From contig NZ_KI912266.1 of NCBI RefSeq assembly GCF_000235425.2, forward strand, positions 4,720,787 through 4,784,786: a stretch of DNA of 64,000 nt, read 5' to 3'. The DNA is from Pseudofrankia saprophytica (GTDB lineage Bacteria; Actinomycetota; Actinomycetes; Frankiales; Frankiaceae). Positions 34,314-50,269 of the stretch are shown in pieces. Each line of letters begins with the position of its first letter. Position 1 is the first letter of the stretch. A program made the translations under genes and the position numbers. Below the pieces are notes generated by a model. It worked only from the letters and a program-made list of their open reading frames with translations. It did not search any database and was not told the origin of the DNA.

Positions 34314-35255
34314 TCAACGCTGGTCGCCGCGGGCGGCGGCCTCGAGGGCCGGGGCGACCGCGGTGACGCTGATCGTGTCCCCGTTCGGCACGGCACCGTC
34401 GGGCTGGCGCAACAGCCACGCGACGACGGCACCCACCGCTTCGGGAGGCCGCCCGTACTCGGCGACCCAGCGCAGGTCGGGGCGGGCGAGCACCCGCTCG
34501 GTGGCGACCGGTCCAGGCTCGACGTTGAAGCACCGAATACCGCGCCCGCCCAGCTCGGCGGCGATCGCGCCGGCCATCCGGTGGAAGCCGCCTTTGCTGC
34601 ACCCGTAGGTGACCGCCCAACCGCCGGCCGTGCCCGGGCCACTGCGCGGGTCGGTCGTCCCGGCGGCCGAGGTGATGCCGACGACCGTGCCGCCGCCCGC
34701 GTCGACCATCGCCCGGACCACCCGCTGGGTGAGCAGCAGCTGCGCGGTCAGGTTGGCGTAGATCCGGCGTTCGATCTCGGTCCGGCTCACGTCGAGAAAG
34801 CCGGCGTCGCCGCCCGGCCCGACGTAGATGGCGTTGTTGACGAGCACGTCGAGCCGGCCGAACGCGTCGAGCACGCCCTCCACCGCCGGGGCCAGCTGGT
34901 CGGCGTCGAGCAGGTCGAGCCGCACCGGCACGACCCGGGCGCCGAGCGCCGCCGCCTCGGCCGCCGTCGAGTCCAGGCTGCCCGGCAGGCCATGGGGGCG
35001 GTCGCCCTCGCGGACGGTGCGCGCCGTGATCGCGACGTCGTAACCGTCGGCGGCGAGGGCAAGTGCGACGGCCCGGCCGATGCCGCGGCTAGCACCGGTG
35101 ACCAGCGCGGTGGGGCGCCGGCCCCGCTCGCTCCGATCGCCCTGCTCGTCGCGCGGCTGGGTGCCCTGCTGGGCAGCCGGCTTGGCGACCGACTGGGCAG
35201 CGGGCTGGGTACCGGCCTGGGTGGCCGTGGACTCGGTGGGCTCGTATGCCGTCAT
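34314..35255 (-). CDS. Short-chain dehydrogenase/reductase (SDR), extended N-terminus
   Basis: A 313-residue classical SDR. NAD(P)-binding is ALVTGASRGIGRAVALALA, followed by VLVNNAIYVG, and the active site is TSAAGTTDPRSG through YGCSKGG. The first 48 residues are unusual: a glutamine/alanine/threonine-rich, low-complexity segment (STATQAGTQPAAQSVAKPAA) that precedes the Rossmann fold and is probably disordered. ATG 35255 overlaps the upstream SDR stop by ATGA, so the two are translated together. Both may act on the same hydroxyl or keto substrate in sequence. A steroid or lipid role is possible given the shared operator with the cholesterol-oxidase-like gene, but it is inference. Confidence 0.88.
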   Translation of the reverse strand: MTAYEPTESTATQAGTQPAAQSVAKPAAQQGTQPRDEQGDRSERGRRPTALVTGASRGIGRAVALALAADGYDVAITARTVREGDRPHGLPGSLDSTAAEAAALGARVVPVRLDLLDADQLAPAVEGVLDAFGRLDVLVNNAIYVGPGGDAGFLDVSRTEIERRIYANLTAQLLLTQRVVRAMVDAGGGTVVGITSAAGTTDPRSGPGTAGGWAVTYGCSKGGFHRMAGAIAAELGGRGIRCFNVEPGPVATERVLARPDLRWVAEYGRPPEAVGAVVAWLLRQPDGAVPNGDTISVTAVAPALEAAARGDQR

Positions 35256-36058
35256 GACTCGGGAAGCTCGGGCGCCCAGGAGACGCCGTTGATGTGGCTG
35301 CCGCCGTCGACGAAGAGTGTGTTGCCGGTCAGGTAGCGGGCGTCCTCGCTGGCAAGGAACACGGCGACACCGCCGATGTCGGCCTCCGGGTCGCCGAGGC
35401 GTCCCATCGGGTTCATGGCCGCGGCGCCGGCGAGCAGCGCCGGGTCCTGCTGAGCGAGCCGTTCGAAGGCGGCCGACCGCGCCGCCGGGCAGATGACGTT
35501 GGCGACCACCCCGTACGGCGCCCATTCCCGGGCGGCCGTCCGGGTGAGGGTGCGCAGCGCCTCCTTGGCGGCGTTGTAGTCGAGCGAGCCGACGTGCGCG
35601 TTCACCCCGTTGAGCGAGCAGATGTTGACGACGCGGCCCCACCCCTGCGCCTTCATCAGCGGGAACGCCGCCTGCATCGCCCAGAACGGCCCGTAGAAGC
35701 CGACCCGCAGGGCGTGGTCGAGCTGGGCATCGGTCTTGCGTTCGGCCCGGCCGAGTCCGCCGCCGCTCCAGGCGTTGTTGACCAGCACGTCGACCGTGCC
35801 GAACTCGTCCTTGGCCGTGTTCACCGCGGCGACCACCTGGGCCCGGTCGCTGACGTCGGTGAGCACGAACCGGACGTCACCGCCGACGTCCGCCTCCAGC
35901 TCGGCCGCCGTCGCGCGCCCCAACGGCTCGTTGTACTCGGCGATGACGACCTTGGCTCCCTCGCGCAGGAATCGGCGGGCGATGCCGCGCCCGATCCCCT
36001 CCCCCGCGCCGGTCACGATCGCCACCCGTCCCGCCAGACGACCCGTCGGACCTGTCAC
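35252..36058 (-). CDS. Short-chain dehydrogenase/reductase (SDR)
   Basis: A 268-residue classical SDR. It has VAIVTGAGEGIGRGIARRFL for the dinucleotide fold, VDVLVNNAWSGGGL, the catalytic serine in VNICSLNGVNAH, and YNAAKEALRTLTRTAAREWA with the Tyr-x3-Lys. The C-terminal YLTGNTLFVDGGSHIN is typical. GTG 36058 has AAGGAG six bases upstream. It is the first gene of the pair with the 34314 SDR and has a TetR-type palindrome about 70 bases upstream. The exact substrate is not readable. Confidence 0.93.
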   Translation of the reverse strand: MTGPTGRLAGRVAIVTGAGEGIGRGIARRFLREGAKVVIAEYNEPLGRATAAELEADVGGDVRFVLTDVSDRAQVVAAVNTAKDEFGTVDVLVNNAWSGGGLGRAERKTDAQLDHALRVGFYGPFWAMQAAFPLMKAQGWGRVVNICSLNGVNAHVGSLDYNAAKEALRTLTRTAAREWAPYGVVANVICPAARSAAFERLAQQDPALLAGAAAMNPMGRLGDPEADIGGVAVFLASEDARYLTGNTLFVDGGSHINGVSWAPELPES

Positions 36059-36130
36059 CGGTACTCCTTCGCCCTGACGTCACGCGGACGGGCGGACCGT
36101 ACGGGCCGAGACCTGGCGGGGTCAATCGTT

Positions 36131-36147
36131 TCTGATGACCCGTCAGA
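36131..36147. promoter_or_regulatory. TetR-type operator, copy A
   Basis: TCTGATGACCCGTCAGA is a dyad of the form TCTGAYG-N3-CRTCAGA. It lies 72 bases before the first SDR start and 116 before the divergent SHOCT gene. The reverse complement of the site at 48460-48476 matches it at 15 of 17 bases, so the same protein probably binds both. Confidence 0.65.
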
Positions 36148-36263
36148 TCTGGCGACGGGCGCGGCGGGGCTCCGGCCAGCCGAACGTGCGCGAGATCCGG
36201 GTCCATACGATCGGCGTTGTCGACGTGACCGACGATCCACCTTCGCCGGATAGGGGCAGTCCG

Positions 36264-37208
36264 ATGCTCTGGCGTCACCTCAAGGCACAGCTGATCGTCC
36301 AGTTGTGCGGCGGCCTGGTCGGGCCGATCTTCCTGCTCGTGTACTTCTCGACCGGCCCGGAGAATCGTCATCTGCTCTCGTGGATGCTCGTCGCGGGCCT
36401 GCTGATCACGGCGATCGACGTGGTGGTCGCCATGCTGCTGGCTCGCGCCGACACCAGCGCGGTCATGCTCATCGGCCGGGCGGCCTTTCCCGGTCGGGCG
36501 GGCTTTGCCGGTCGGGCGGCGTTCCTGGGCCAGGCAGTCACCGGAACCGGCACGCGGGCCGCCGAGCTGGAGCGTGACGGTGTGCTGGCGCTCGCCCGGA
36601 TCACCGGCATGGCCGAGACCGGCATCAGCGTCAACGACCAGCCGCTGGTCGGGATCCGCCTGCGCGTCGAGGGACCGGGCTTCGCGTTCGACGCCCAGGA
36701 ACAGGCGGCTGCCGGGGTGACCCGCATGGCCACCCTCAACGCGCGCAAGGTCGTCGTCCTCGTCGACCCGGCCACCCAGGCCGTCGCCATCGACTGGGAC
36801 CGCAGCGCCCTGGTCAACGGCCAGGTTCTCGCCCGGTTCACCCTCGCCGAGGACGACACGGCCTATGACCTGACCGGCCAGGCCGGCCCGCTGCTGGAGA
36901 TCCTGCGGATCCTGAAAGCCCACGACATTCCGTTCGACCGGATGGTCGACGCCCGCTCGAACCCGGACCTGCGCGACCAGCTGCGCGCCGTGGTGCGACA
37001 GGCCACGGCCCGCGAGGGCACGGCCCGCGAGGGCACCGCGGCCTGGTCCCCGCCGACCACCGACGCCGACGGCGCGCCCACGTTGCTGACCAAGCCGAAG
37101 CGGCCCGCGGCCGAGCGTCTGCGCGAGCTCGACGCGCTCCGCGCCACGGGCGCCATCAGCGACACCGAGTACACGACCAAGCGCGACCAGATCATCGCCG
37201 AGATCTAG
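36264..37208 (+). CDS. SHOCT-domain membrane-associated protein of unknown function
   Basis: A 314-residue protein. Residues 10-60 contain two hydrophobic helices (LIVQLCGGLVGPIFLLVYFS, MLVAGLLITAIDVVVAMLLA). A glycine/arginine/phenylalanine repeat follows (near GRAAFPGRAGFAGRAAFLGQ). The middle is soluble beta-rich sequence. The last 35 residues are a clear SHOCT domain (RLRELDALRATGAISDTEYT, then TKRDQIIAEI), a short C-terminal motif thought to mediate oligomerisation or membrane attachment. ATG 36264 has AGGGG nine bases upstream. No catalytic motif is visible. Confidence 0.75.
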   Translation: MLWRHLKAQLIVQLCGGLVGPIFLLVYFSTGPENRHLLSWMLVAGLLITAIDVVVAMLLARADTSAVMLIGRAAFPGRAGFAGRAAFLGQAVTGTGTRAAELERDGVLALARITGMAETGISVNDQPLVGIRLRVEGPGFAFDAQEQAAAGVTRMATLNARKVVVLVDPATQAVAIDWDRSALVNGQVLARFTLAEDDTAYDLTGQAGPLLEILRILKAHDIPFDRMVDARSNPDLRDQLRAVVRQATAREGTAREGTAAWSPPTTDADGAPTLLTKPKRPAAERLRELDALRATGAISDTEYTTKRDQIIAEI

Positions 37209-37344
37209 CCGCCTCCGCCTTGCGCCCCTGACCCGCTCGGCGACCCGAGGGCTTCGCCGGGCAGGTCGGCCGAGTTCGCCCACGCCCGGGCGCGATGGCG
37301 AAAATCCGCCAGACACACCGGACCGTCGATCGAATGATGAAGGC

Positions 37345-37815
37345 ATGACCACCGCGATCACCACCGCCTACCGCCTCCGGCCGATCGATCCTGACGACGC
37401 CGACCGGCTGCGTGCCGAGCACCCGGACGCGCCGGTGTACGCCGTCGACGCCCACCCGGGCTACCCGTGCCGGCAGTGCCTGCGGGACGCGGCCGTGGGC
37501 GAGGAGGTGATCCTCGTGTCGCACGATCCGTTCACGGCCGACAGTCCCTACCGCTCGGCGAGCCCGATCTTCCTGCACCGCGCCCCCTGCGAGCCACCTT
37601 CGGACCTTCACGCCCTTCCGGCGCAGCTCGCCGGCCGGCAACTGTCCGTCCGCGCCTTCGACGGAGACGCGGTGATGATCGACGCGGCTGTGATCGCTGG
37701 CACCGACCTCCCCGGGACGCTCGACCGCTTCTTCGCACTCGAGGCGTGCGACCACGTCCACGTGCACAACGCGAGCCGTGGCTGCTGGGCCACCCGTGTC
37801 GACCGCGCTCGCTGA
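37345..37815 (+). CDS. DUF1203-family protein
   Basis: A 156-residue DUF1203 protein. Recognisable segments: AHPGYPCRQCLRDAAVGEEV near residues 36-55, SHDPFTADSPYRSASPIFLH, and the ending FALEACDHVHVHNASRGCWA. Conserved cysteines at CRQC and near the C-terminus and several histidines suggest a metal or redox site, but the family is uncharacterised. ATG 37345 is chosen because the conserved domain begins right after it. It stands alone. Confidence 0.85.
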   Translation: MTTAITTAYRLRPIDPDDADRLRAEHPDAPVYAVDAHPGYPCRQCLRDAAVGEEVILVSHDPFTADSPYRSASPIFLHRAPCEPPSDLHALPAQLAGRQLSVRAFDGDAVMIDAAVIAGTDLPGTLDRFFALEACDHVHVHNASRGCWATRVDRAR

Positions 37816-37966
37816 CCAGCGAGACCGCCTGCCTTCCGAACCATGAAAAGCGCGCCTTTGTCACCGTTGTCACCGCTGTCACCGCTTGGCGGGCAGCTCG
37901 CCACAGCTGGTCGCCGGCTCGCCCCAGACCGGGAATGCCGTCCCGCGGCCAGGTGGTTGCGCAGGC

Positions 37967-38665
37967 ATGACGACGATCGGACTGATCGGAAGCGGGAACA
38001 TCGGCTCGACCGTGGCCCGGCTGGCGGTCGCGGCCGGCCACGACGTGGTGCTGAGCAACTCGCGCGGTCCCGAGACGCTGGCCGGCCTGGTGGCCGAGCT
38101 GGGTCCCCGGGCGCGGGCCGGCACCGCGGCCGAGGCGGCGAGGGCCGGCGACCTGGTGGTCGTGACCATCCCGTTGCGGGCCTACGAGAGCGTTCCGGTG
38201 GAGCCACTCGCCGGCAAGATCGTGCTCGACACCTGCAACTACTACCCGCAGCGTGACGGGCAGATCGCCGAGCTCGACGACGAGAGCACCACGACCAGCG
38301 AGCTGGTGGCGCGCCACCTGCCCGGCTCGAAGGTCGTGAAGGTCTTCAACAACATCTACTTCAAGCACCTGCTGTCGCTGGCGCGCCCGGCCGGGGCGCC
38401 GGACCGCTCGGCGCTGGCGATCGCCGGGGACGACGCCGACGCGAAGGCCGCGGTCGCCGTGTTCCTCGACCAGATCGGCTACGACACGGTCGACGCCGGC
38501 CCGCTCGCCGAGGGCTGGCGGTTTCAGCGCGACACGGCCGCGTACGCCGGGCTCTACTTCGGTCCGGATGGACGCGCGGGCGACGCGGGCGAACCGATCG
38601 ACGGCGCTGCCCTGCGCACCAAGCTCGCCGCCGCCCGCCGCTACGCCGACACCGCCGCCGGCTGA
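37967..38665 (+). CDS. NADPH-dependent F420-reductase-like oxidoreductase
   Basis: A 232-residue protein of the F420-dependent NADP oxidoreductase family. The N-terminal dinucleotide motif is TIGLIGSGNIGSTVARLAVA, then VLSNSRGPETL, and the downstream segments VVVTIPLRAYESVP, LDTCNYYPQRDGQ and VVKVFNNIYFKHLLS match. F420 use is plausible in an actinomycete but cannot be proven, because many family members are plain NADP(H) oxidoreductases. ATG 37967 is close to the start of the Rossmann fold; the ribosome site is only AGG. Confidence 0.85.
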   Translation: MTTIGLIGSGNIGSTVARLAVAAGHDVVLSNSRGPETLAGLVAELGPRARAGTAAEAARAGDLVVVTIPLRAYESVPVEPLAGKIVLDTCNYYPQRDGQIAELDDESTTTSELVARHLPGSKVVKVFNNIYFKHLLSLARPAGAPDRSALAIAGDDADAKAAVAVFLDQIGYDTVDAGPLAEGWRFQRDTAAYAGLYFGPDGRAGDAGEPIDGAALRTKLAAARRYADTAAG

Positions 38666-39112
38666 CCCCAGAGCGGATCATCCGCAGACGCCACAGCCCA
38701 CCATCCACCGCGACCGCCGATACCTGACAAATGGGCACCGCCTGGGCGGGTTACCCCACGGGTACGGTCGATAACTAGCGGCAGTCGGGACGCAACCCGT
38801 CCGGTCGCGGTGGCCAGCCGGAGTTTTCCGGCATCGCCTGGTAGGGCAGGTGCGGGGCGGACGCCAGCGGAGAGCCCGCGGGCGCGGACGCCACGGCCGA
38901 GACCGGCGACGCACGATGCGGACGGGACGGCCTCGCCAGACTCTGCGACCGCATCCTCACGGACGTCGCCGGCCTGGCCGGCGGCGAGGACGACCTGCGC
39001 CTGCTCGCCGTCGCAACTCCCTGACCCACAGGCCGTCCTCGGGCGCCGGCGTCGCGAGGTTCGAAAAGCTGATCGTCGTTCCTGCCTTCCGGTGGTCGCC
39101 CACCAGACCAGG
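38666..39112. other. Intergenic region with a possible phosphatase remnant
   Basis: About 450 bases. Its plus-strand end (38850-39024) may be the tail of a lost PP2C/SpoIIE phosphatase, listed separately. The rest has no convincing frame. Confidence 0.4.
38850..39024 (+). pseudogene. Possible SpoIIE/PP2C phosphatase C-terminal remnant
   Basis: In one plus-strand frame the last residues before the stop at 39022 read GLARLCDRILTDVAGLAGGE, then DDLRLLAVATP, the typical ending of SpoIIE-type phosphatases (a Gly-Glu-Asp-Asp then a hydrophobic strand). There is no upstream phosphatase core, start codon or ribosome site. It is best read as a relic; the match is short and uncertain. Confidence 0.3.
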
Positions 39113-39817
39113 TCAGGCCTTAAATTGAATCTCGAACCAGTGCCGTATGTGTTCGTCGGTATGAGTACGGCCGATGCGGATTGCCTCGCCGATCAGCACA
39201 CGGAGATCTGCGGGGTAGTAGTCCTCGTTCCTGAGAGTCAGCTCGCGCAGGACGAACCGGCGCACGGCAAGGTCTTCATTCGACACGAACTCGCGCAATA
39301 TGGCTTCACGCCATGCTGCGCGCAGGTCCGCCAACGACGCCCATTCCGCCGGATCCACCGGCTCCATGATCCCCACTGCGTGGGCTTTGTGCCGCCAGGG
39401 CATGCACGTCCAATACCATGCTCGAACCGCGCCGGCACGCTCGGCATTTGTCCCGCCGCGGAGGAAGCCGAGCAATGCGGTCTGGACCCGACGCCGGCCG
39501 AAATTTTCCACGGCCGGCCTGATGAACTGGGCGTTGAAGCTTGGATCCGGCTCATAGACCCCTGCCCGGACAAGTGCCTCGAAGAACTGTTCCGGCAGCT
39601 TGTCGTGCTCTCGCAGTCTGCGCCGGATGGCAGCCCTGGCCGCGTGTTGCCAGGCCCGGGTCCCGGGCTCCGTCGGCCGGATGTCCGCGCGGACGAGGCT
39701 CGCAAGATCCACCAGATGACGGCGATATATGGCGGCGACATCCCCGGCGCACGGGGGTCGCGGCTTGGGTGCCTCCGGGGGCCGCTCCAGTGCGTTCGCT
39801 GTTTCGTCCGCGTTCAT
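39113..39817 (-). CDS. Hypothetical protein
   Basis: A 234-residue protein that I do not recognise. The composition is natural (not arginine/proline-rich as in shadow frames), and it is helix-rich: AAIYRRHLVDLASLVRADIR, LREHDKLPEQFFEALVRAGV, RRRVQTALLGFLRGGTNAER, WASLADLRAAWREAILREFV. The C-terminal part (NEDYYPADLRVLIGEAIRIG) has an unusual run of acidic and aromatic residues. No signal peptide or membrane helix is seen. ATG 39817 is a guess; the frame is open to 40087. The DNA here looks somewhat less GC-rich than the neighbours. Confidence 0.65.
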   Translation of the reverse strand: MNADETANALERPPEAPKPRPPCAGDVAAIYRRHLVDLASLVRADIRPTEPGTRAWQHAARAAIRRRLREHDKLPEQFFEALVRAGVYEPDPSFNAQFIRPAVENFGRRRVQTALLGFLRGGTNAERAGAVRAWYWTCMPWRHKAHAVGIMEPVDPAEWASLADLRAAWREAILREFVSNEDLAVRRFVLRELTLRNEDYYPADLRVLIGEAIRIGRTHTDEHIRHWFEIQFKA

Positions 39818-40270
39818 GGCCATCCATGTCGAACAGGTCCGTGTCGGCGTTGGGGTTTCGCCGGCCCACGTCGCCGGTCTGCCAGGCCGTACCTTGATCT
39901 CGCGCCTCGGGACACGCTGGATCCAGCTTGCGAGGTGCCCCAGCGACGTCTGCCTGGCACCCGCGACGGCGGCCCAACCAGCGTGGCAGTGACGCAGGCC
40001 CAACCCCTCCGTGATCGCCGGTTGCGCCCTGCCATGGCTGCCAGCGGGGCCAGGCCATGGCCACCGGAGGGCGCGAACAGTGATCAAGCCTCAGGCCGAC
40101 CACCAGGGCAGCGATGGTGAACCTCACGTCGGCGTTCCTGGCCGAATCCAGTCAGAGCCTGTGGCGCCCGTAACGGCCCATCCGGCGCCACAGGCCATGG
40201 CTCGATCCCATGCCGACGGAAGGACAACCGACGCCGGTGCCGGCGTCGGTGCCCCGACGGACGTCGAAAA
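39818..40270. other. Intergenic region, nothing recognised
   Basis: About 450 bases upstream of the hypothetical protein (its promoter, or an N-terminal extension if it starts further up) and beyond the lipoprotein end. The frame of the 39113 gene stays open here but its sequence looks non-coding. No operator or RNA structure is apparent. Confidence 0.35.
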
Positions 40271-40669
40271 TCAGGTGCAGGCGTTCTGCAGCGCGGTGCC
40301 CGCGCTGATCAACGGGGTGTTGTCGGGCATCTGCGGCGTGGTGGAGGTGGAACTGGAAAGGTTCCCGACGAACGTGCCCAGACCGTCCATCGCCTCGGCG
40401 ACCTGCAGGCCGGCCGTCTTCACATCGCCGCTCGCGCCGTTGGCCGTGGCCCGGATCGCGGCCGCCTGGTCGTGGTAGGTCTTCGCCATCGCGGTGGGAT
40501 CATTGACCTGCGACATACTGGTCGTGCCGAGATCCTGGATAGCCTTCTGCATCGACGTGCAGGCAGCGGCGTTGTCACCGCTGCTCGAACAGGCCGCCGT
40601 CAGTCCGAACATTCCCGTGAGGGTTCCGACCGCGATTGCCGTCGACAGGCGGCGGGGTGCACTTGGCAT
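40271..40669 (-). CDS. Small secreted lipoprotein, unknown function
   Basis: A 132-residue exported protein. The signal peptide (RRLSTAIAVGTLTGMFGLTA) ends in a lipobox LTAAC, so Cys27 would carry the lipid anchor. The mature part is helical and rich in A, S, T, D and Q (ACTSMQKAIQDLGTTSMSQV, MAKTYHDQAAAIRATANG), with two further cysteines, one early and one at the end (LQNACT), which may form a disulfide. ATG 40669 has AAAGGGA seven bases upstream. Family not recognised. Confidence 0.8.
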   Translation of the reverse strand: MPSAPRRLSTAIAVGTLTGMFGLTAACSSSGDNAAACTSMQKAIQDLGTTSMSQVNDPTAMAKTYHDQAAAIRATANGASGDVKTAGLQVAEAMDGLGTFVGNLSSSTSTTPQMPDNTPLISAGTALQNACT

Positions 40670-40896
40670 GTGACGTCCCTTTTCGTTGCTTTTGGGAGGA
40701 ATCTGCGCACACGGTACACCGCCCAAACCGGGCAGCCTCAGCGGCCTCACGTGCGGCCGGCGCGCATGGCCAGCTCAGGCACCGAGAAGGCGTCGCCGGG
40801 CGACGGCCTGCAGAAGTCACCTATCCACATGTCGGGTTTCCGACACGCGGATGCGTCACCATCCCGTCCCGCGGAGGTGGGGCCGGGGCCGAGCCC

Positions 40897-41667
40897 TCAG
40901 CGTTTGTGCCCGACGGCGAAGACGCGACGGAACGGCAACAGCACTCGGCCGGCGTCGTCGACTGGGAATGCCTCGGCCAGGCGCCCTTTCAGTTCCCGCT
41001 CGAACGCGGGGCGCAGGTCGGCCGGCAAAGCGGCGAGGGTGGGCCGCAGGCTCGTTCCGGAGATCCAGGTGAAGACCGGGTCGGGTCCGGTCAGCACGTG
41101 CAGGTAGGTGGTCTCCCAGGCGTCGGCGATGAGGCCCTCGGCGGCCAGGGCACGCAAGTACGCCGCCGGGTCGTGCGCGGCCCCCGCCTCGACGTCGGCC
41201 GTGTGGGCGGCATACGGCGGCTCGGCGGCGAGCTGGGCGCCCAGCGTGTGGCTCGGCGCGGCGAAGTTGCCCGGCACCTGGAACGCGAACCAGCCGCCCG
41301 GCGACACCGCCCGGGCGAGCGCGGGCAGGAGATCGAGATGGCCCGAAACCCAGTGGAAGGTGGCGTTCGAGACCAGCACGTCGACGCTGCCGGCCGGCGC
41401 GGCGCTCACCCAGTCGCGCAGGTCGGCGACCCGCCAGGTGATCCGCTCGTCCGTGGCCTTCGCGATCATCGCCGAGCTGCTGTCGACGCCGACGACGCGG
41501 GCCGCGGGCCACCGGTCGGCGAGCAGGGCGGTCAGGTTGCCGGGGCCGCAGCCCAGGTCGACGACGGTGGCCGGCTCGGCCGAGACCCTGGCCATCAGGT
41601 CCGCGAACGGCCGGCCACGCTCGTCGGCGTAGGTCAGGTAGCGGTCCGGGTCCCAGGTATCCGCCAT
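40897..41667 (-). CDS. tam: trans-aconitate 2-methyltransferase
   Basis: A 256-residue class I methyltransferase of the Tam type, which transfers a methyl group from SAM to trans-aconitate and protects the citric acid cycle. It begins WDPDRYLTYADERGRPFADL, with SAM motif I VVDLGCGPGNLTALLADRWP, then DVLVSNATFHWVSGHLDLL and FAFQVPGNF. Length matches E. coli Tam. The ribosome site GGAGG is eight bases before ATG 41667. It is convergent with no adjacent partner; the NmrA-like gene upstream has the same direction with a gap of 54 bases. Confidence 0.9.
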   Translation of the reverse strand: MADTWDPDRYLTYADERGRPFADLMARVSAEPATVVDLGCGPGNLTALLADRWPAARVVGVDSSSAMIAKATDERITWRVADLRDWVSAAPAGSVDVLVSNATFHWVSGHLDLLPALARAVSPGGWFAFQVPGNFAAPSHTLGAQLAAEPPYAAHTADVEAGAAHDPAAYLRALAAEGLIADAWETTYLHVLTGPDPVFTWISGTSLRPTLAALPADLRPAFERELKGRLAEAFPVDDAGRVLLPFRRVFAVGHKR

Positions 41668-41721
41668 CGCAGCCTCCAGGCCACCCGACTTCAGAGCAGT
41701 AGCAGGCTAACCCTCATGGGC

Positions 41722-42468
41722 TCACCGCGCTCCGGCGGCCAGCCAGGCGTCGAAGGTGGTGGGCATGATGCGGGCGCCCGCGCCGGGCAGCATGGCGTTG
41801 CCGGCCATGCCGAGGCCGTGTACCCCCTCCCACGTCGGCACGAGCCGGATCTCCCGGCCGCGTGCCGCGTAGGTGCGCCGCGCCATGTCGACCAGGTCCT
41901 GGGTCTCAGGGCCGGCGATGTCGAGCCGCTCGCGCCGGGGCTCACCGACGGCGGTCTCGGCCAGGACCGCGGCGACGTCGGCGGGGGCGATCGGCTGCAT
42001 GAGCAGCGGTGCGACGACAGCGGTGCCGTCCCGCTCGGTCCAGGAGGCGACCATGGCGGCGAAGTCGTGGAACTGGGTGGCGCGCACGATCGTCCACGGC
42101 ACCGGTCCCCGCTCCACGGTGGTCTCCTGCGCCAGCTTCCCCGCGTAGTGCGCGTTCGCCGGCGGCTCCGACATGCCGACGATGGACAGCGGCACGTGAT
42201 GCCCCACCCCGGCGCGCTGTTCCGCGGCCAGCAGGTTCGCGGTGGTGGTCGTGAAGAAGTCGACGACCGTAGTGACGTCCTGTGCCGGGGTGTTCGAGCA
42301 GTCGATCACGGCCGCCACGCCGTCCAACGCCTTGTCCAGCCCCTCCCCGGTCAGGACGTCGACGCCGAGTGACCGGGCGACGTCGACCACCTCGTGCCCG
42401 CCGTCCCGGAGGACCTCGCTGGTGAGCCGCCCGATCCGGCCTGTGGCTCCCACTACCGCCACCCGCAT
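41722..42468 (-). CDS. NmrA-like NAD(P)-binding protein
   Basis: A 248-residue atypical SDR of the NmrA/HSCARG group. The Rossmann motif is RVAVVGATGRIGRLTSEVLR; later segments are VIDCSNTPAQDV, HHVPLSIVGMSEPPAN, HYAGKLAQETTVERGPVPWT, IVRATQFHDF. Some family members reduce quinones or ketones; others sense redox state without catalysis. ATG 42468 has an excellent GGGAGGT seven bases upstream. It is divergent from the Rrf2 regulator (83 bases between starts), so that regulator probably controls it. Confidence 0.9.
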   Translation of the reverse strand: MRVAVVGATGRIGRLTSEVLRDGGHEVVDVARSLGVDVLTGEGLDKALDGVAAVIDCSNTPAQDVTTVVDFFTTTTANLLAAEQRAGVGHHVPLSIVGMSEPPANAHYAGKLAQETTVERGPVPWTIVRATQFHDFAAMVASWTERDGTAVVAPLLMQPIAPADVAAVLAETAVGEPRRERLDIAGPETQDLVDMARRTYAARGREIRLVPTWEGVHGLGMAGNAMLPGAGARIMPTTFDAWLAAGAR

Positions 42469-42508
42469 CGCTACCTCCCGCACGTCTGGCTATTGCGGAG
42501 AAAACATA

Positions 42509-42526
42509 TCCTAAATCTCCTAGATC
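42509..42526. promoter_or_regulatory. Tandem Rrf2-type operator candidate
   Basis: TCCTAAATC-TCCTAGATC are two adjacent 9-base direct repeats, unusually AT-rich for this window. They lie midway between the divergent NmrA and Rrf2 starts, a natural place for a repressor of both genes. Confidence 0.45.
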
Positions 42527-42551
42527 CCGCCACCTCCGATACGGTGGCGGC

Positions 42552-43022
42552 GTGAGGCTGCCGGAGAGCACCGAGTGGCTGTTGCACTGCGCCGTCACGC
42601 TCGCCCTGCTGAAACCCGGGCAGGCGGCCTCCGCCGGCCAGCTGGCCGGCTACTACGACCTGCCTCTGCCTTCGCTGGCCAAGCAGCTTCAGGCGCTCGT
42701 GCGTGCCGGCGTGCTCACGGCGACGACCGGCCCGCGAGGCGGGTTCCGGCTGGCGCGGGACCCAGCGGACATCACGGTCCTGGAGGTCGTCGAGGGGGTC
42801 GACGGCGCCGCCGCCCCCTACCGGTGCCGCGAGATCCGGCAACACGGCCTCGGCGCCCTGCCCACCGAGGACTGCGCCGCCCCGTGCGTCCTGGCCACCA
42901 CCATGGCCCGGGCGCATCAGGCCTGGCGCGACAGCCTGGGCTCGGTCTCTCTCGCCGACATCGTCAGCGACCTTCCACCCGGCGCCCCCGGCCGCACCCG
43001 CCGGTTCCTTCCCGGGCGGTGA
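42552..43022 (+). CDS. Rrf2-family transcriptional regulator
   Basis: A 156-residue Rrf2 protein. The winged helix is at the N-terminus (LALLKPGQAASAGQLAGYYD, then PLPSLAKQLQALVRAGVLTA). Three cysteines in the C-terminal half (YRCREIR and EDCAAPC) match the spacing of iron-sulfur sensing members such as NsrR and IscR, so redox or nitric-oxide sensing is possible. GTG 42552 has no clear ribosome site. It is divergent from the NmrA-like gene and probably its repressor. Confidence 0.88.
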   Translation: MRLPESTEWLLHCAVTLALLKPGQAASAGQLAGYYDLPLPSLAKQLQALVRAGVLTATTGPRGGFRLARDPADITVLEVVEGVDGAAAPYRCREIRQHGLGALPTEDCAAPCVLATTMARAHQAWRDSLGSVSLADIVSDLPPGAPGRTRRFLPGR

Positions 43023-43044
43023 GCCGCCCGTGCCTCACTGATCG

Positions 43045-44325
43045 CTAGCGCACGGTGAAGTCGCAGGCCAGCCGCTTGACGCCGTTGATGAAGCTGCTGG
43101 CCAGCCACTCGGGCTCACCGACCGCCCGGATGTCGGGGGCCTGGGCGAACAGCTCCCGCCACATCACCGAGATCTCCCTGCGGGCCAGGTGGGCGCCGAG
43201 GCAGAAGTGCGGGCCGGCGCCGCCGAAACCGAGGTGGGGGTTGGGGTCGCGGCGGACGTCGAACCGGTCGGCGTCGGCGAACACGGCCTCGTCGCGGTTC
43301 GCCGACGAGTAGAACAGCAGGACCTTGTCGCCGGCGTGCAGCCGCTGCCCCGAGACCTCGACGTCCTGGGTGACCGTGCGGCGCATCCAGCGCACCGGGC
43401 TCGACCACCGGACGATCTCCTCGACGGCGGTCCGGCTCACCCCCGCCACGTCGCCCCGCCAGGCGGCCCGCTGCTCGGGGAACGCCGTCAGCGCGAGGAG
43501 CGCGTGGCTGATCGCGGTGCGGGTGGTCTCGTTGCCGGCGACCAGCAGCAGGATGAAGAACGAGGCGATCTCGCTGTTGTCGAGGCGTTCGCCGTCGACC
43601 TCGGCGAGGGCGAGCGCGGTCGTGAGGTCGTCGGTCGGCGCGGTCCGCCGGCGCGTCGCCTCCTGGTTCAGGAGGTCGGCGAGCTCCGCGCCGGCGCCGA
43701 GCAGGGCGGCCACGATGTCGGCGCCCTCCGGGACGTAGTCCGGGTCACCGGAGCCGAGGATCACGTTCGTGCAGCGGAAGACGTCGCCGTACCGCTCCTG
43801 CGGCAGGCCCATCATCCGGCAGATGACCTCCAGCGGGAGCCGGGCCGCGACCCGCGAGACGAAGTCACCCGGCCCCTTGGCGACCAGGTCGTCGACGATC
43901 GCACGGGCGATCGCGGCGATGTCCTGCTCCGTCTGGGCGATGATGCGCGGCGTGAAGGCCCGGGAGACGATGCGCCGCAGCCGGTGGTGCCGCGGCGCGT
44001 CGAGGTTGATCATCCCGCCGAAGAACTCGAGGAACTCGGGCGGCAGGTCCGGGATCGAGGTCGCGCCGCGGGCCGAGGAGAAGGTGCCCGGCTCCGAGCT
44101 GATCCGGACGATGTCCGCGTGCCGGGTGGCCGCGTAGTAGCCCGGCCCGGTCGGGATCAGCTCGCTCACGGACGACGGCTCGCGGTAGAACGGCAGGCCC
44201 GGCCGCCCGCGCAGCCGGGTGAACGCGGCGTCTATCTCGGCACGAGGCCGGACCCAGAAGGAGAGGTCGGAGAGGTCGACGTCGTCGACCGCCCGAATCG
44301 GACCGGCACCGGTGGCGGCTGACAT
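43045..44325 (-). CDS. Cytochrome P450, CYP125/142-like
   Basis: A 426-residue P450. The heme loop is GFGGAGPHFCLGAHLAR, the I-helix LLLVAGNETTRTAISHALL has the normal Thr-Thr pair, and the ExxR is EEIVRW. MINLDAPRHHRLRRIVSRAF and the ending SSFINGVKRLACDF resemble the CYP125/CYP142 group, whose best-known members hydroxylate the cholesterol side chain in mycobacteria. That family tie is by eye. ATG 44325 is preceded by GGAGGGA. It could belong to a steroid or long-chain-lipid catabolic theme with the cholesterol-oxidase-like gene at 48.5 kb, but no redox partner is adjacent. Confidence 0.92.
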   Translation of the reverse strand: MSAATGAGPIRAVDDVDLSDLSFWVRPRAEIDAAFTRLRGRPGLPFYREPSSVSELIPTGPGYYAATRHADIVRISSEPGTFSSARGATSIPDLPPEFLEFFGGMINLDAPRHHRLRRIVSRAFTPRIIAQTEQDIAAIARAIVDDLVAKGPGDFVSRVAARLPLEVICRMMGLPQERYGDVFRCTNVILGSGDPDYVPEGADIVAALLGAGAELADLLNQEATRRRTAPTDDLTTALALAEVDGERLDNSEIASFFILLLVAGNETTRTAISHALLALTAFPEQRAAWRGDVAGVSRTAVEEIVRWSSPVRWMRRTVTQDVEVSGQRLHAGDKVLLFYSSANRDEAVFADADRFDVRRDPNPHLGFGGAGPHFCLGAHLARREISVMWRELFAQAPDIRAVGEPEWLASSFINGVKRLACDFTVR

Positions 44326-44592
44326 GACTCTGCGTCCCTCCTGACGTGCGGCTGACCTGCCCTCTTCCGCTGCCACCATCTACGCGTCCGCGACGCTTCG
44401 TCGTCCCGGCGCGCCGCCCGCCGACGACGAGCCGTGGCCGTCCGGGTTCACGCCATCCGGCGAGGCCCCGGTCCCCGGTAAGTGTGACCTGGATCGCAGG
44501 ACCTGGTGATCGGAAACGGCATACAGGTCTCCACGAGTCTCGCGTTCCGGTTCGGCGGCGGCCTTCCCCGAGCTGGTCGCCGGGTGGGTCAG

Positions 44593-45717
44593 TCAGCCGG
44601 CGGCGCGGCGCGCCCGGGCCTCGAGCCCACTCGGGGCGAGCAGGATGGCGGCCAGCGCGGCCAGCTCGACCACCGGCGAGACGTGGCTGCCCAACCACGG
44701 CACAGCCAGGCAGACCAGCGCCGTGACGGCTCGCGGCCCCGCCGGCGCGAAGCGCAGCGCCCGACGGAACGCGGCCGACCCGAGCGCGAAGGTCGCCGTT
44801 CCGATCGCGATCAGCATGGCGGAGGCGGTCGATCCGCGGGCCAACAGGTCCTCGCTGGACAGTCGGATGCCCGCCGCCAGCAGCAGGACCCCGAAGATCA
44901 TTATGTAGTGGGCAAGGAAATAGCCGGTGATGGCCAAGATTGGGCGCCGCCGCGGGTCGGCGTTCCGCATGGCCGTGACCGCCCGGTCGTCGTCCCCGCC
45001 GAAGTACCACCACCACATGACGGTGAGCACGACGAGCCCGGCCAGGGCCCCGGCTATCAGGCGCGGGACGATCCGGCTCTCCTCGCTGGCCAGGGCCACC
45101 CCGACCAGCGACTCGCCGAGCACGATGAGAATCACCAGGCCGTGCCGCTCGCCGAAATGGGCCGCGTTGATGTCGAAGTTGCTTTCCAGCCGGACGAGGA
45201 ACGGCGTCACCACCTGGACCAGCGCGGCCATCGTCCACAGCACCGGCACGACCCGTCCACCACTGAACCCGGCGGCCAGAATGAGACCGGTACTGAGCAG
45301 GTTGGACGGCAGGAACCGGGCGACCGCCCGGTAGGCCGCCCGCCCGGTGAACATGATGAACCCGGCGGCGTGGACGAGAATGACGGCCAGGTAGGCAAAG
45401 CCGAACGTGATCCCGCCACCGTGAAACGCGGTCGGCACCGCCATGGCGACGACGAAGAACGCGGCCATCCCGAACAGCAGCACCGCCCGACGGCCCGAGG
45501 TGTTCGGATCGTTGGTGTTGGTCAGCCACGCGAAGCCGCCGTACATCCAGAAGATGACCGACAGCTCGACCGCGGCCCGTCCCACCCCGGCCAGATCGGC
45601 CGACCGCACGATCACGGCCGTGGTCTGGGTGACGGTGAAGACGAACACGAGATCGAAGAACAGCTCGGTCGTCGAGACCCGGGACGGGGCGATCGACGGA
45701 CGGCTCACGTCGGTCAC
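44593..45717 (-). CDS. ltrA: LtrA-like membrane protein
   Basis: A 374-residue protein with about 11-12 hydrophobic helices. The family signature is TTELFFDLVFVFTVTQTTAV at the start, then FGERHGLVILIVLGESLVGV, the most conserved stretch of LtrA (low temperature requirement A) proteins. The role is not known beyond cold growth in the original Listeria mutant. I chose GTG 45717 (VTDVSRPS) because the signature begins 18 residues later; the frame is open for another 99 codons without family similarity. It is a single gene, and the P450 at 43045 runs the same way. Confidence 0.88.
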   Translation of the reverse strand: MTDVSRPSIAPSRVSTTELFFDLVFVFTVTQTTAVIVRSADLAGVGRAAVELSVIFWMYGGFAWLTNTNDPNTSGRRAVLLFGMAAFFVVAMAVPTAFHGGGITFGFAYLAVILVHAAGFIMFTGRAAYRAVARFLPSNLLSTGLILAAGFSGGRVVPVLWTMAALVQVVTPFLVRLESNFDINAAHFGERHGLVILIVLGESLVGVALASEESRIVPRLIAGALAGLVVLTVMWWWYFGGDDDRAVTAMRNADPRRRPILAITGYFLAHYIMIFGVLLLAAGIRLSSEDLLARGSTASAMLIAIGTATFALGSAAFRRALRFAPAGPRAVTALVCLAVPWLGSHVSPVVELAALAAILLAPSGLEARARRAAG

Positions 45718-46423
45718 GCGGGAACCGGACCCCTCCCAGCCAAACGACCCCAAGTTGCCTGCCTCGGCGACCCGCTGGTCCGCCGGCCTCACCGGCACTG
45801 GTTCGGGCAGGCCTGCCCGGTCGTCCGGACGGTGCCATGCGTGATCCTCCTGCCGGCGACCGAGCCGCTGCCTGCCCCCGAAGCTCTGGACGTGACCGGC
45901 GGCGCGGAGCGACATTCCCACTCTAATCACCGCGATCTGCCCCCGGGCATTCACCGACCACATGTCGCGGCCTGCTGCCGTGTCCGTGGGGAACGGTCGG
46001 CCGGCCGTCGCCACCGCTTCGGGTTCACGCCAGGCCGTACATGAGCACGGCGGTGCCGAACGGCGCCCCGCCGCGGCCGGTCGGTATTACTGGGTCTGAC
46101 TCTCCTGTCGGCGTCGCCCGCGGCCGACCCGGTTGGTCGGTCGGCGCACCGAGGGCATGGTCCCGTCGTGGGCTTCCCGTGAGCACGAGCGCGGTTTCCC
46201 GCCACGGCCGGGAGGAATTCCCGCGCCGTTCGGGACCGGTCGCGGTGCGCACCGTGAACGTGATTCACCCGGCGGCCGGAGACGTCCCAGTGGACCATCA
46301 AATATGAAGCCCGTCTCACCCCTCCGCGAACATGATTCATTTCGCGGTGATGGACCTGGCAGGGACGCCACGGAGTTCCCTCCGTTCCCGCCGGCCGGTC
46401 CACGGCCCGACCCGGCGACACGG
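45718..46423. other. Intergenic region, nothing recognised
   Basis: About 700 bases between LtrA and the LOV phosphatase, both on the minus strand. The LtrA frame continues upstream to 46014 but without family similarity. No clear gene, operator or RNA structure was found. It must hold the LtrA promoter. Confidence 0.4.
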
Positions 46424-48235
46424 TCAGGCCGGGTTAGTCCCGGTGAGCCGGACGAGCAGGACGGCGATGTCGTCCTGCTGGGGTTCGTCGCCCGCCGCCT
46501 GCCGGGTGAGCGCGTCGGCCAGTCCGTCCAGGTCGGGGTGGGCGCCGCCCGCATGGCCGGAGACCGGCTCAGGGGTGTGGCCGGCGAGCAGGGCGGCGGC
46601 CTGGTCGATGCCCTCCTCGATATCCCGCCCACGCCGCTCGACCAGCCCGTCCGTGTAGAGGAGCAGGGTCGAGCCGGGTGGCACCGAGAGGCTCGCCTCG
46701 CCGCGGCCGCCGGCGTCCATGACGCCGAGCAGGAGCGAGTTCGCGTCGGCGAGCGGCTCGACCGTGCGCTGCCCGGTGCCGTCGACGGTGCACAGCAGCG
46801 CCGGGAGATGCCCGGCGTTGGCGTAGCTCAGCGTCGCCCCGCCGCCGGGGTCCGGCGCCAGGACGGCGTAGAAGACGGTCGCGAAACTGTCCATGCCGAG
46901 TCCCTGGACGACCCGGTCGAGACGCTCGAGCACCTCCCCGGGCCCGGCCAGCTCCCAGGCATAGGCCCGCAGCATGCTGCGCAGCTGCGCCATCGTCGCC
47001 GCCGCGGGCAGGTCGTGGCCCATGACGTCGCCGATGGCGATTCCGACCCTGCCGTCGGGCAGGAGCAGGACGTCATACCAGTCGCCGCCGACGCGGACCG
47101 TGTCGCTGGCCGGAAGGTACCGGGCGGCGAAGGACAGGGCGGGCACGGTTGGCATCTCGGGCAGCAGGCTGCGCTGCAGCGTCTCGGCGACCGTGTGGGC
47201 GCGCACGTACAGGCGGGCGTTGTCCAGCAGCAGGCCGGCGCGCCGGCCCAGGTCGACGGCCAGGTCCAGGTCGTCCCGGTCGTAGCGGCGGCCGGACGCC
47301 GCGGTCGTGATCAGGCGAAGCACGCCCACGACCTGGCCGCGGGCCAGCAGCGGTACCGCGAGAAACGAACGCGGTCGCATCCGGCGGTAGGCGTCGAGCT
47401 CGGCGGCGCTGGTCGCGGACCGCACCATGTCGTCGTCACGGACCTCGGGCACCAGGACCGGCCGACCGACGGACAGGACCCGGCCGACCAGTCCCCATCT
47501 GGTTCCCGGCAGGCCACGGGCGGCCTCGCCCGCCAGGAAGTCGGCCTCGATGCCGGGGTCGAGACCGGCGAGCGCGGTCCGGCCCGACTCGTCGCCCCAG
47601 GAGGCCAGGTCGACCACGGCCAGGTCGGCCAGCCTCGGCACCAGCACCCTGGCCAGGGCCCGCAGGGCGGCCGGCCCCTGCCGCAGCGCTCCCGACATGA
47701 CGTCGGTGACCTGTCCGAGCAGCTCCAGGCGGTCGTGCGCGGCCCGTTCGACCCGCGCGGCCCATTCGGCGGTGGACCGCGCCTGCTGCTCGCGGACGAG
47801 GAGTTCCTCCCGCCGGGCCCTCGCCTCGACCCGATCTGTCACGTCGCTCTGCACGCCGACGAAGTGCGTGAGCCGTCCGTCCCGGTCGAGGACGGGGGCC
47901 AGCGCGATCTCGCTCCAGAAGGTGCTGCCGTCCTTGCGGTAGTTGAGGATCTCGACCCGGGTGGGCCGGCGCTCCCGCTGGGCGGCGCCCAGCCTGGCGG
48001 CGGCCGCCGGGTCGCTGCGCGGGCCCTGCAGGAAGCGGCAGTTTCGCCCGACGGCCTCGGCGAAGGAGTAGCCGGTGATCCGGGTGAAGGCGTCGTTGAC
48101 CCAGGTCAGCGGGGTGTCGGGCTGGTACGGGTCGGCGAGCGTGAAGCTCACGTCCGTGCTCCGCAGGACACGTTGGTAGAGGTCGTCAGCCGCCGCCATC
48201 CCCAGGGACCCATCCGCCGGGCCGCCGGATGCCAT
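46424..48235 (-). CDS. LOV-GAF-PP2C (SpoIIE) blue-light-responsive phosphatase
   Basis: A 603-residue three-domain signalling protein. Residues 15-130 are a LOV-type PAS domain: WVNDAFTRITGYSFAEAVGR, then NCRFLQG with the flavin-adduct cysteine at residue 66, NYRKDGSTFWSEI and FVGVQSDVTDR. All canonical LOV residues are present, so FMN binding and blue-light adduct formation are expected. A GAF domain occupies about 165-345. The C-terminal 250 residues are a SpoIIE-type PP2C phosphatase: GGDWYDVLLLPDGRVGIAIG, DVMGHDLPAAATMAQLRSML, LLLYTDGLVERRG, QQDDIAVLLV; metal-binding aspartates are intact. Such phosphatases normally act on anti-sigma-factor antagonists. ATG 48235 is preferred; MAAADD (48199) is an alternative. 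No partner-switch genes are adjacent. Confidence 0.95.
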   Translation of the reverse strand: MASGGPADGSLGMAAADDLYQRVLRSTDVSFTLADPYQPDTPLTWVNDAFTRITGYSFAEAVGRNCRFLQGPRSDPAAAARLGAAQRERRPTRVEILNYRKDGSTFWSEIALAPVLDRDGRLTHFVGVQSDVTDRVEARARREELLVREQQARSTAEWAARVERAAHDRLELLGQVTDVMSGALRQGPAALRALARVLVPRLADLAVVDLASWGDESGRTALAGLDPGIEADFLAGEAARGLPGTRWGLVGRVLSVGRPVLVPEVRDDDMVRSATSAAELDAYRRMRPRSFLAVPLLARGQVVGVLRLITTAASGRRYDRDDLDLAVDLGRRAGLLLDNARLYVRAHTVAETLQRSLLPEMPTVPALSFAARYLPASDTVRVGGDWYDVLLLPDGRVGIAIGDVMGHDLPAAATMAQLRSMLRAYAWELAGPGEVLERLDRVVQGLGMDSFATVFYAVLAPDPGGGATLSYANAGHLPALLCTVDGTGQRTVEPLADANSLLLGVMDAGGRGEASLSVPPGSTLLLYTDGLVERRGRDIEEGIDQAAALLAGHTPEPVSGHAGGAHPDLDGLADALTRQAAGDEPQQDDIAVLLVRLTGTNPA

Positions 48236-48459
48236 CCGGTGGTGCCCGGCGCGCCTCGATCGACCGGGCACCTCACAGCCCGGCGACGCACGATCATCCC
48301 ACCCTTGCTCACCGTACGTGTCGTCGCGATTTCGTCGCGCATCCACTCCTCCACCTTAGGTCCGACTCGTCACGACGGCCGCTCGGCGACCGATGCCCCG
48401 CGCGGGACCTCTTGACGAGCCGAGGGGCGTCCGAGATCATCTCCCCCGCGCCACGTTTT

Positions 48460-48476
48460 TCTGACGGACCATCAGA
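48460..48476. promoter_or_regulatory. TetR-type operator, copy B
   Basis: TCTGACGGACCATCAGA is a dyad with the form TCTGAYG-N3-CRTCAGA, 26 bases before the cholesterol-oxidase-like start. Its reverse complement matches the site at 36131-36147 except for two central bases. Confidence 0.7.
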
Positions 48477-48502: not shown

Positions 48503-50269
48503 ATGACTCGTCACCACGAGCCCGCACCCCACCGTCCGGACGAGGATCCGGGCCGGAGCCACGCCTCCCGTCGGGCCGTCATCGCGGGAGCGGGCCTGAC
48601 CGCGTTCAGCCTGCTGCAGTGGACGCCCGCCTTCCGGCTGACGCCGGCGGAGGCGGCCACCCCCGCGCCCCCGAACTTCCCGACGTCCGTTCCCCTGTAC
48701 CTGCAGGCCTTCCAGAACTGGTCCGGCGAGATCAAGGTCGACAACCTGTGGACCGCCGCGCCCGCCTCACCCGCCGACGTGGTGACCATGGCGAACTGGG
48801 CGCATGCCAACGGCTGGCGATTACGGCCGCGGGGCGCGCGGCTGAACTGGTCACCGCTGGTGGTACCGGCGGGCGCATCGGGCGTCGTGCTCGTCGACAC
48901 CACCGCACACCTCACCGCGATCACCGTCCACGCCGGCAGCCCGGCATCGGTGACCGTCCAGCCGGGCGCCACGGTGGACGCCGTGCTGGCGGCGCTCGAA
49001 CCGGCCGGCTACGGGGTGACCGCGACCCCGGCGATCGGTGAGAACACAATCGGCGGAGTGCTGGCGGTCGGCGGGCGCGGGACCGGGATAGCCGCACAGG
49101 GCGAGACCCTCCCCGCCGGCCACACCTTCGGGTCGCTGAGCAACCTGGTGGTCTCCCTGACCGCGGTGGTCTGGGACGCCGGCCAGAACCGCTACGTGCT
49201 GCGCACCTTCCAGCGCGGCGACGCCGAGGCCGGCGCGCTGCTCGTCCACCTCGGCCGGGCCTTCATCACCGAGGCGACGCTGCGGGTGGGGCCGAACCGG
49301 CGCCTGCGCTGCCAGAGCTGGTTCAACGTCAGCGCCGACACGTTGTTCGCTCCCCCGGCCTCGGCCGGGGCCCAGTCGTTCGCGAGCTACGTGAACTCCA
49401 GCGGCCGGGTGGTGTGCATCTGGTTCCCGTTCACGGCGAACCCGTGGCTGCGGGTCTGGACCGTGAGCCCGAACAAGCCGGTGCTGTCCCGGCAGGTCTC
49501 CAGCGCGTACAACTTCCCGTTCAACGACATCATCCCGCAGCAGGTCTCGGACCTCCTGACACAGATCATCACCGGCGACGTCTCGCAGACGCCGACGCTG
49601 ATGCAGACCCAGATCAGCCTGGTCGGTGCGGGCCTGGTCTCGACGGCGAGCTGGGACATCTGGGGCTGGTCGAAGAACCTGCTGTCCTACGTCAGATCGA
49701 GCACGCTGCGGATCACGACCACCTGCCACGCGATCCACACCCGGCGCGCGGACATCCAGCGGGTGGCCGCCGAGTTCTACGCCTTCTACAAGGGCAAGCT
49801 CGCCGAGTACCAGGCGCGCGGCCAGTACCCGATGAACGCCCCGGTGGAGTTCCGCGTCACCGGTCTCGACAATCCTGCCGACTCGCTCGTGCCCGGCGCG
49901 CGCCCGGCGCTCCTGTCACCGCTGCGGCCGCGGCCGGACCACCCCGAGTGGGACGCGGTGGTGTGGGTCGACGTGGTGAGCGTTCCCGGCACCCCGTACC
50001 AGGACCAGTTCTACCGGGAGCTGGAGACGTGGCTGCGCAGCAACTACGCCGGCGCCTACGCCGCCGTCCGGCCGGAATGGTCGAAGCGCTTCGCGCACAC
50101 CGACGCCGGCCCCTGGACCGACCCCGCGGTGCTCGGCACGACGATTCCGGCGAGCTACTCCGCCGGCGCACCGGCCGGCGCCGACTGGAACGCCGCCCGG
50201 GCGATCCTGTCCGCACTGGACCCGCACCGGGTGTTCAGCAACGCGTTCCTGGACACCCTCCTACCCTGA
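48503..50269 (+). CDS. Cholesterol oxidase-like (BCO2/VAO-type) flavoprotein, Tat-exported
   Basis: A 588-residue protein closely matching Brevibacterium type II cholesterol oxidase (BCO2), a VAO-fold enzyme that oxidises cholesterol with O2. A Tat signal (ASRRAVIAGAGLTAFSLLQW, RR at 23-24) directs export. Shared segments: LQAFQNWSGEIKVDNLWTAA, TFGSLSNLVVSLTAVVWDA, WLRVWTVSPNKPV, APVEFRVTGLDN (the catalytic-site Glu and Arg), HPEWDAVVWVDV, LDPHRVFSNAFLDTLLP. BCO2 binds FAD covalently through a histidine in its RPRGAMHGW; here the matching region is RPRGARLNWSPL, with Leu114 in that place, so FAD would be non-covalent. ATG 48503 has AAAGGGG upstream. A TetR-type palindrome is 26 bases upstream. 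Substrate may be a sterol or another alcohol. Confidence 0.9.
   Translation: MTRHHEPAPHRPDEDPGRSHASRRAVIAGAGLTAFSLLQWTPAFRLTPAEAATPAPPNFPTSVPLYLQAFQNWSGEIKVDNLWTAAPASPADVVTMANWAHANGWRLRPRGARLNWSPLVVPAGASGVVLVDTTAHLTAITVHAGSPASVTVQPGATVDAVLAALEPAGYGVTATPAIGENTIGGVLAVGGRGTGIAAQGETLPAGHTFGSLSNLVVSLTAVVWDAGQNRYVLRTFQRGDAEAGALLVHLGRAFITEATLRVGPNRRLRCQSWFNVSADTLFAPPASAGAQSFASYVNSSGRVVCIWFPFTANPWLRVWTVSPNKPVLSRQVSSAYNFPFNDIIPQQVSDLLTQIITGDVSQTPTLMQTQISLVGAGLVSTASWDIWGWSKNLLSYVRSSTLRITTTCHAIHTRRADIQRVAAEFYAFYKGKLAEYQARGQYPMNAPVEFRVTGLDNPADSLVPGARPALLSPLRPRPDHPEWDAVVWVDVVSVPGTPYQDQFYRELETWLRSNYAGAYAAVRPEWSKRFAHTDAGPWTDPAVLGTTIPASYSAGAPAGADWNAARAILSALDPHRVFSNAFLDTLLP

Follow-up and report, generated by a model that had tools for sequence, protein, structure and literature searches.

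The stretch of the Pseudofrankia saprophytica genome considered here, called the window below, is 64 kb long (G000:C1:4720787-4784786; genome size 9.98 Mb). It carries two genes of the short-chain dehydrogenase/reductase (SDR) family and, on the opposite strand, a cholesterol oxidase gene. A copy of the palindromic 17-mer TCTGAYGnnnCRTCAGA, a candidate operator, lies upstream of the SDR genes and another upstream of the oxidase gene (Table 1). The ATG of the second SDR gene overlaps the stop of the first, and the two thus probably form one operon. A sequence-only reading had noticed both sites, which were said to differ at two central bases only and to sit in the promoter regions of the SDR operon and of a cholesterol-oxidase-like gene. 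Re-reading of both 17-mers confirms this: TCTGATGACCCGTCAGA (36131) and TCTGACGGACCATCAGA (48460) match the motif exactly, as nothing else in the window does, and when the second is reverse-complemented, only its bases 8 and 9, within the three-base centre, disagree with the first. The promoter locations hold as well, the oxidase being of the PF09129 type.

Table 1. Location of the operators, of the genes and putative promoters around them and of the candidate repressor gene (window coordinates unless another locus is named)
Feature	Position	Strand	Remarks
SDR 2	34314..35255	-	Pfam match within longer open reading frame (ORF) 34314-35642; ATG at 35255
SDR 1 (adh_short_C2)	35252..36058	-	Pfam
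Putative core promoter, SDR operon	36096..36125	-	TTGACC, 18-base spacer, TACGGT; consensus reading
Operator 1	36131..36147	-	reads TCTGACGGGTCATCAGA toward the SDR operon; core kept upstream of two other close SDR orthologs, L275 and L276
P450 nearest to CYP124	43045..44379	-	no operator; outside the regulon
Putative core promoter, cholesterol oxidase gene	48412..48440	+	TTGACG, 17-base spacer, GATCAT; consensus reading, both boxes kept in L102
Operator 2	48460..48476	+	kept in L102
Cholesterol oxidase, PF09129 type	48503..50269	+	Pfam; nearest solved structure is the cholesterol oxidase 3js8
Operator, old-yellow-enzyme-type (OYE-type) reductase	L040:6959-6975		divergent neighbour is a DabA gene
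Operator pair, second cholesterol oxidase	L041:8389-8405 and 8551-8567
Candidate TetR gene	G000:C1:6968422-6969303 = L047:8422-9303		outside the window, about 2.2 million bases away

The two operators are placed differently with respect to the putative core promoters. Operator 1 lies upstream of the SDR promoter, with a gap of 5 bases, and operator 2 lies downstream of the oxidase promoter, starting 19 bases after it. The TTGACC box is found in all three aligned SDR promoters and TACGGT in two of them, L275 having TACCGT. Under a first-order Markov model of the window, the expected number of exact 17-mers is 0.001 for 64 kb and 0.15 for 9.98 Mb, against four in the genome. With up to three mismatches allowed, the window holds seven matches, five of them with three mismatches, so that there is no excess at this level (mean of the shuffles, 7.94). 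The two window sites score 26.6 and 29.3 with an operator matrix, which was trained on 25 hand-entered sites (one entered twice), many of them later scored by it; the matches at TetR promoters described below are outside the training set.

The sequence-only reading had called for a genome scan with the motif, which would speak against a common regulator if it gave random hits with no functional theme. The scan gives a catabolic theme instead, as a purely descriptive tally. The genome has 13 copies of the 15-base core, CTGAYGnnnCRTCAG (Markov expectation 4.7; reversed-pattern control 1), and nine of these sites fall in promoters of catabolic or redox genes, the gene calls around many of them, and in several of the other loci described below, coming from a simple heuristic of G+C at the third codon position. 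These promoters belong to the SDR operon, to two PF09129 cholesterol oxidases (the one in the window and a second at L041), to divergent acyl-CoA dehydrogenases, to an OYE-type reductase, to an Amidohydro_3 gene, to two divergent aldehyde dehydrogenase/luciferase-like monooxygenase pairs and to an Amidohydro_2 gene that has an alcohol dehydrogenase as its divergent neighbour. Four sites lie outside the theme: between ABC-transporter and sigma-factor genes (L037), within an ORF (L039), within the alanyl-tRNA synthetase gene (L050) and, uncertainly, about 7 bp ahead of a luciferase-like ORF (L049). Two further sites are near-exact: one lies at an alcohol dehydrogenase/enoyl-CoA hydratase pair (L048), the other precedes the gene of a 341-residue protein that matches no Pfam family (L046). 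The DabA-type inorganic carbon transporter across the L040 operator is an odd partner for a steroid regulon. At the second cholesterol oxidase, the main operator is preceded, 151-163 bp upstream, by a degenerate copy in each of the four loci (L041, L114, L115 and L117), a spacing that could allow looping.

That a single TetR-type repressor might control both window sites had been proposed from the sequence, together with a search for a TetR gene bearing the site in its own promoter. TetR genes near sites were sought with a hidden Markov model (HMM) built from the TetR_N domains of the genome, and a candidate was found far from the window (Table 1); its own promoter has an operator-like match, at 38 bp from the gene start. 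The comparative evidence thus supports one regulon with one candidate TetR, encoded outside the window. The candidate scores 33.0 bits with the HMM, and its NCBIfam matches are TetR-type repressors, every one below the cut-off. Its nearest solved structure by sequence is EthR, a weak match (3e-6) whose best stretch covers residues 71-156 of 293 and which mainly concerns the helix-turn-helix (HTH) part.

Orthologs of the candidate, 51-81% identical to it in pairwise BLAST, recur in site-rich clusters (L174, L181, L185 and, in another family, L192). A distance of exactly 38 bp between the operator-like match and the TetR start, taken from the longest ORF, is kept in four of these five loci, the own one included; L192, in genome G051, has no operator-like match at its TetR promoter. 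Over 30 loci, an own-promoter match is found in 9/9 carriers of family f1, taken as Frankiaceae, and in 6/7 loci of families f12 and f14. As a control, none of 30 other TetR genes of the genome has a match scoring at least 12 within 600 bp upstream. In five of the six f14 loci, an SDR-like gene directly precedes the TetR ortholog and the site lies 21-22 bases before that SDR-like gene; in the sixth, L209, the site overlaps the called start of a gene. The three f14 SDRs compared are 35-39% identical to the window SDR and thus need not be its orthologs. The recognition-helix region of the candidate, AGTS.ATFYQYF, is identical in all 26 aligned orthologs save at the dotted position.

Operator and candidate repressor also tend to be found together. 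Among 393 genomes of the class, 60 carry the TetR (E <= 1e-30) and 57 the exact 17-mer, which is present in 47/60 genomes with the TetR versus 10/333 without it (Fisher 8e-39). Within f1, the corresponding figures are 8/9 versus 0/26 (Fisher 4e-7); both tests ignore phylogeny. The 393 genomes contain 258 exact sites and, as counted by eye, three reversed-control matches.

The sites themselves are partly conserved in relatives. A cholesterol oxidase relative is present in 51 loci, 33 of which were scanned over an interval reaching 500 bp upstream of the approximate gene start and 150 bp into the gene, and eight of these 33 have an operator with at most one mismatch: two of Pseudofrankia sp. BMG5.36 (L102 and L114), one each of P. 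asymbiotica (L115) and Frankia nepalensis (L117), and four of Streptacidiphilus (L109, L112, L113 and L148). The nearest named relative of the window oxidase is that of Pseudofrankia sp. BMG5.36, at 95%. In the conserved operators, the arms are constant and the centre is variable. The window SDR has two close orthologs in its family (91% and 95%), the site core being kept in both; matches at 45-46% fall outside this comparison. In other genera, the commonest families among 36 chosen site-adjacent proteins are SDR (7), luciferase-like monooxygenase (5), Amidohydro_2 (4), thiolase (3) and acyl-CoA dehydrogenase (3), a purely descriptive count. In three Streptacidiphilus loci (L112, L113 and L148), the oxidase operator stands between the oxidase and a divergent gene (L112:3443-4729 and similar), the start of which we take to resemble a glycosyltransferase. 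In the L188:10933-14141 region of G051, one operator is flanked by an Amidohydro_2 gene and, divergently, by the gene for a SARP-type regulator (BTAD, NB-ARC, TPR).

The link to steroids comes from the targets and from the surroundings of the candidate gene. Sites are present at the two PF09129 cholesterol oxidases, which may be steroid-specific targets. The TetR region, defined as the stretch 6.86-6.98 Mb, contains a KstR-like TetR gene (L043:14306-14992; best PDB matches KstR, 2e-30), a KstR2-like one (L044:10412-11152; 5e-56 to KstR2) and a gene for a ChsH2-like OB-fold protein, which only share this region, as well as genes for a CoA transferase, a lipid-transfer protein and acyl-CoA ligases. 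KshA_C gives two strong and two weak matches in the genome, none of them in this stretch. A KstR-type palindrome, TAGAACnnGTTCTA, which fits the KstR consensus TNNAACGTGTTNNA in its outer letters, was searched for with up to one mismatch. The genome has 13 copies of it (control 5), six of them in the TetR region; one copy is separated by 5 bases from the longest ORF of the KstR-like gene, which it precedes. Three such sites lie 45, 50 and 99 bp from operators of this genome (promoters L038, L043 and L047), when 0.005 pairs within 150 bp are expected genome-wide (P 2e-8). Within the TetR region, 0.075 pairs are expected and two are seen (P 0.003), one of them involving a near-exact operator. 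The pairing is also found in relatives, at the acyl-CoA dehydrogenase pair (L170, L178 and L183), at the aldehyde dehydrogenase/luciferase-like promoter (L174 and L181) and at another promoter in L185. Since KstR-type palindromes adjoin the operator in several promoters, joint control is suggested. Neither window operator has such a palindrome beside it, at up to one mismatch.

Taken together, these data indicate that the two window sites are probably operators of one TetR-family repressor, encoded at C1:6968422-6969303, which would control its own gene and a scattered steroid/lipid-catabolic regulon, partly jointly with KstR. The catabolic regulon proposed by the sequence-only reading is retained here, its targets being mostly catabolic and including two cholesterol oxidases. 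What computation shows is the operator, the genes it targets, how it is conserved and its association with the candidate; DNA binding, repression and ligand of this TetR are predicted. A TetR dimer would bind TCTGAYGnnnCRTCAGA across or beside the core promoter and block transcription, and the operator positions at the SDR operon, at the cholesterol oxidase and at the TetR gene, relative to promoters read by consensus, would suit such a steric repression. The repressor would be released from its operator by a ligand, which may be a steroid or an intermediate activated with CoA.

Several observations weigh against this interpretation. Twenty-five of the 33 scanned oxidase loci lack the site, with best matches at three or more mismatches, including that of Frankia sp. 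AgB1.9 (76% identity). The candidate's own sites score 13-16 within the genus, well below those of the window, and in f18/g24, taken as Streptomyces, none of 14 TetR loci, G051 included, has an own-promoter match. The control genes were the best-scoring 30 of at least 150 TetR_N matches, a small share. The exact 17-mer is missing from 13 of the 60 TetR-bearing genomes and is found in 10 of the 333 others. G046, G100 and G174 have six to seven sites each with no TetR match at E <= 1e-30 (G174 is 68% complete), and G007 has three matches to the stricter 15-mer CTGAYGGNCCRTCAG (control 1) yet no TetR match. Among 20 oxidase-bearing genomes, the TetR is present in 7/7 with the site and also in 8/13 without it, a weak test. 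Finally, the steroid substrates are deduced from gene families only.

Alternatively, another regulator, of the TetR or another family, might bind the operators and be correlated with the candidate solely through shared ancestry and shared clusters. In its favour, the promoters checked for a site were those of 30 among at least 150 TetR_N matches of the genome, and the f18/g24 TetR lacks a site at its own promoter; we nevertheless consider it unlikely, in view of own-promoter matches in 9/9 f1 and 6/7 f12/f14 loci versus 0/30 control genes. A more specific possibility is the TetR whose gene (L041:7145-7939) immediately precedes that of the second cholesterol oxidase; this TetR would act as a local sterol-oxidase regulator and make the C1:6968422 TetR a bystander. 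It is close to a strong site, it is kept beside the second oxidase in Pseudofrankia sp. BMG5.36, P. asymbiotica and F. nepalensis (73-78% identity), and in the last of these there is a site 146 bp ahead of the MVERR start. The other three of the four loci show no own-promoter site, however, and its HTH region, VSVPGLYHYV, is unlike the candidate's. This type of TetR was met only beside the second oxidase, no distribution search having been made, and alone it does not explain the sites in other families; we consider it quite unlikely to be the regulator. That the two sites form a chance pair, or a terminator-like palindrome with no regulatory role, appears highly improbable. Most CTGAYGGNCCRTCAG matches of G046 lie within called genes or at 3' ends, and a G+C-rich core alone can thus arise otherwise, which counts in favour of chance or terminators. 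Against it stand the chance expectation of 0.001 in the window, the conservation of sites among orthologs, the target families, and the 258 exact sites versus three control matches.

The proposed control of the sites by the TetR encoded at C1:6968422 can be compared with known systems. KstR is likewise a TetR-family regulator of many catabolic promoters, and its palindromes occur in three promoters of this genome that bear the new operator. Its consensus, as given in PMC8228715, is unrelated to TCTGAYGnnnCRTCAGA, and in this genome the KstR-like protein has a gene of its own, distinct from the candidate's. KstR2, also a TetR regulator of steroid catabolism, has its counterpart in the candidate's region, again a different gene, and its operator AAGCAAGNNCTTGCTT (same source) differs from the new one. 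Neither KstR nor KstR2 is among the 15 PDB sequences that match the candidate at E <= 0.001. Lcin1 is a further palindromic motif of a steroid cluster, predicted for bile-acid catabolism in Nocardioides simplex. According to PMC7593942, it was found by footprinting, its regulator is unproven and its consensus is TCCCGGT[C/G]ACCGGGA, which is not the new operator.

Full-text searches of open-licence PubMed Central (PMC) papers with the operator spellings gave no match, and no description of the operator or its regulator was found in titles and abstract openings of such papers, among the matches listed; the f18/g24 TetR may already have a name. We regard the TetR regulon as real and apparently undescribed, no published description having been found among the open-licence PMC papers searched. 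There is about an even chance that its regulator is a third, undescribed repressor of steroid/isoprenoid catabolism in the TetR family, which several actinomycete families have kept together with the operator and which, jointly with KstR, puts a double lock on some of its promoters, to be opened only by both ligands. Steroid regulators beyond KstR and KstR2 have been proposed (PMC8228715), and this idea can now be put to a direct test with a single protein and some DNA probes. The scattered sterol-oxidase and catabolic genes of Frankia relatives gain an operator and a probable regulator. The footprint of the regulon reaches Streptacidiphilus, and operator and TetR also co-occur in genomes taken as Streptomyces, a genus of which only one species out of more than 50 was reported to have the cholesterol pathway (PMC4810484).

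Three further candidates were set aside. The P450 gene between the two window sites had been described as CYP125/142-like and included in the regulon. Among solved structures, CYP124 comes nearest to it (3e-118), followed by a protein named CYP125MRCA (2e-110), and this P450 is excluded from the regulon, the window having just the two operators and none at this gene. A TetR beside a P450 operon (L173:7311-7928) was likewise rejected as the regulator, the site lying after that gene and before the next one. G046 (family f13), with 17 CTGAYGGNCCRTCAG matches, was rejected as a large regulon on account of the location of these 15-mers, which are possibly terminators or other palindromes. In the window, an Rrf2-family regulator gene (42552-43022) adjoins the CYP124-like P450 and an NmrA-like gene.

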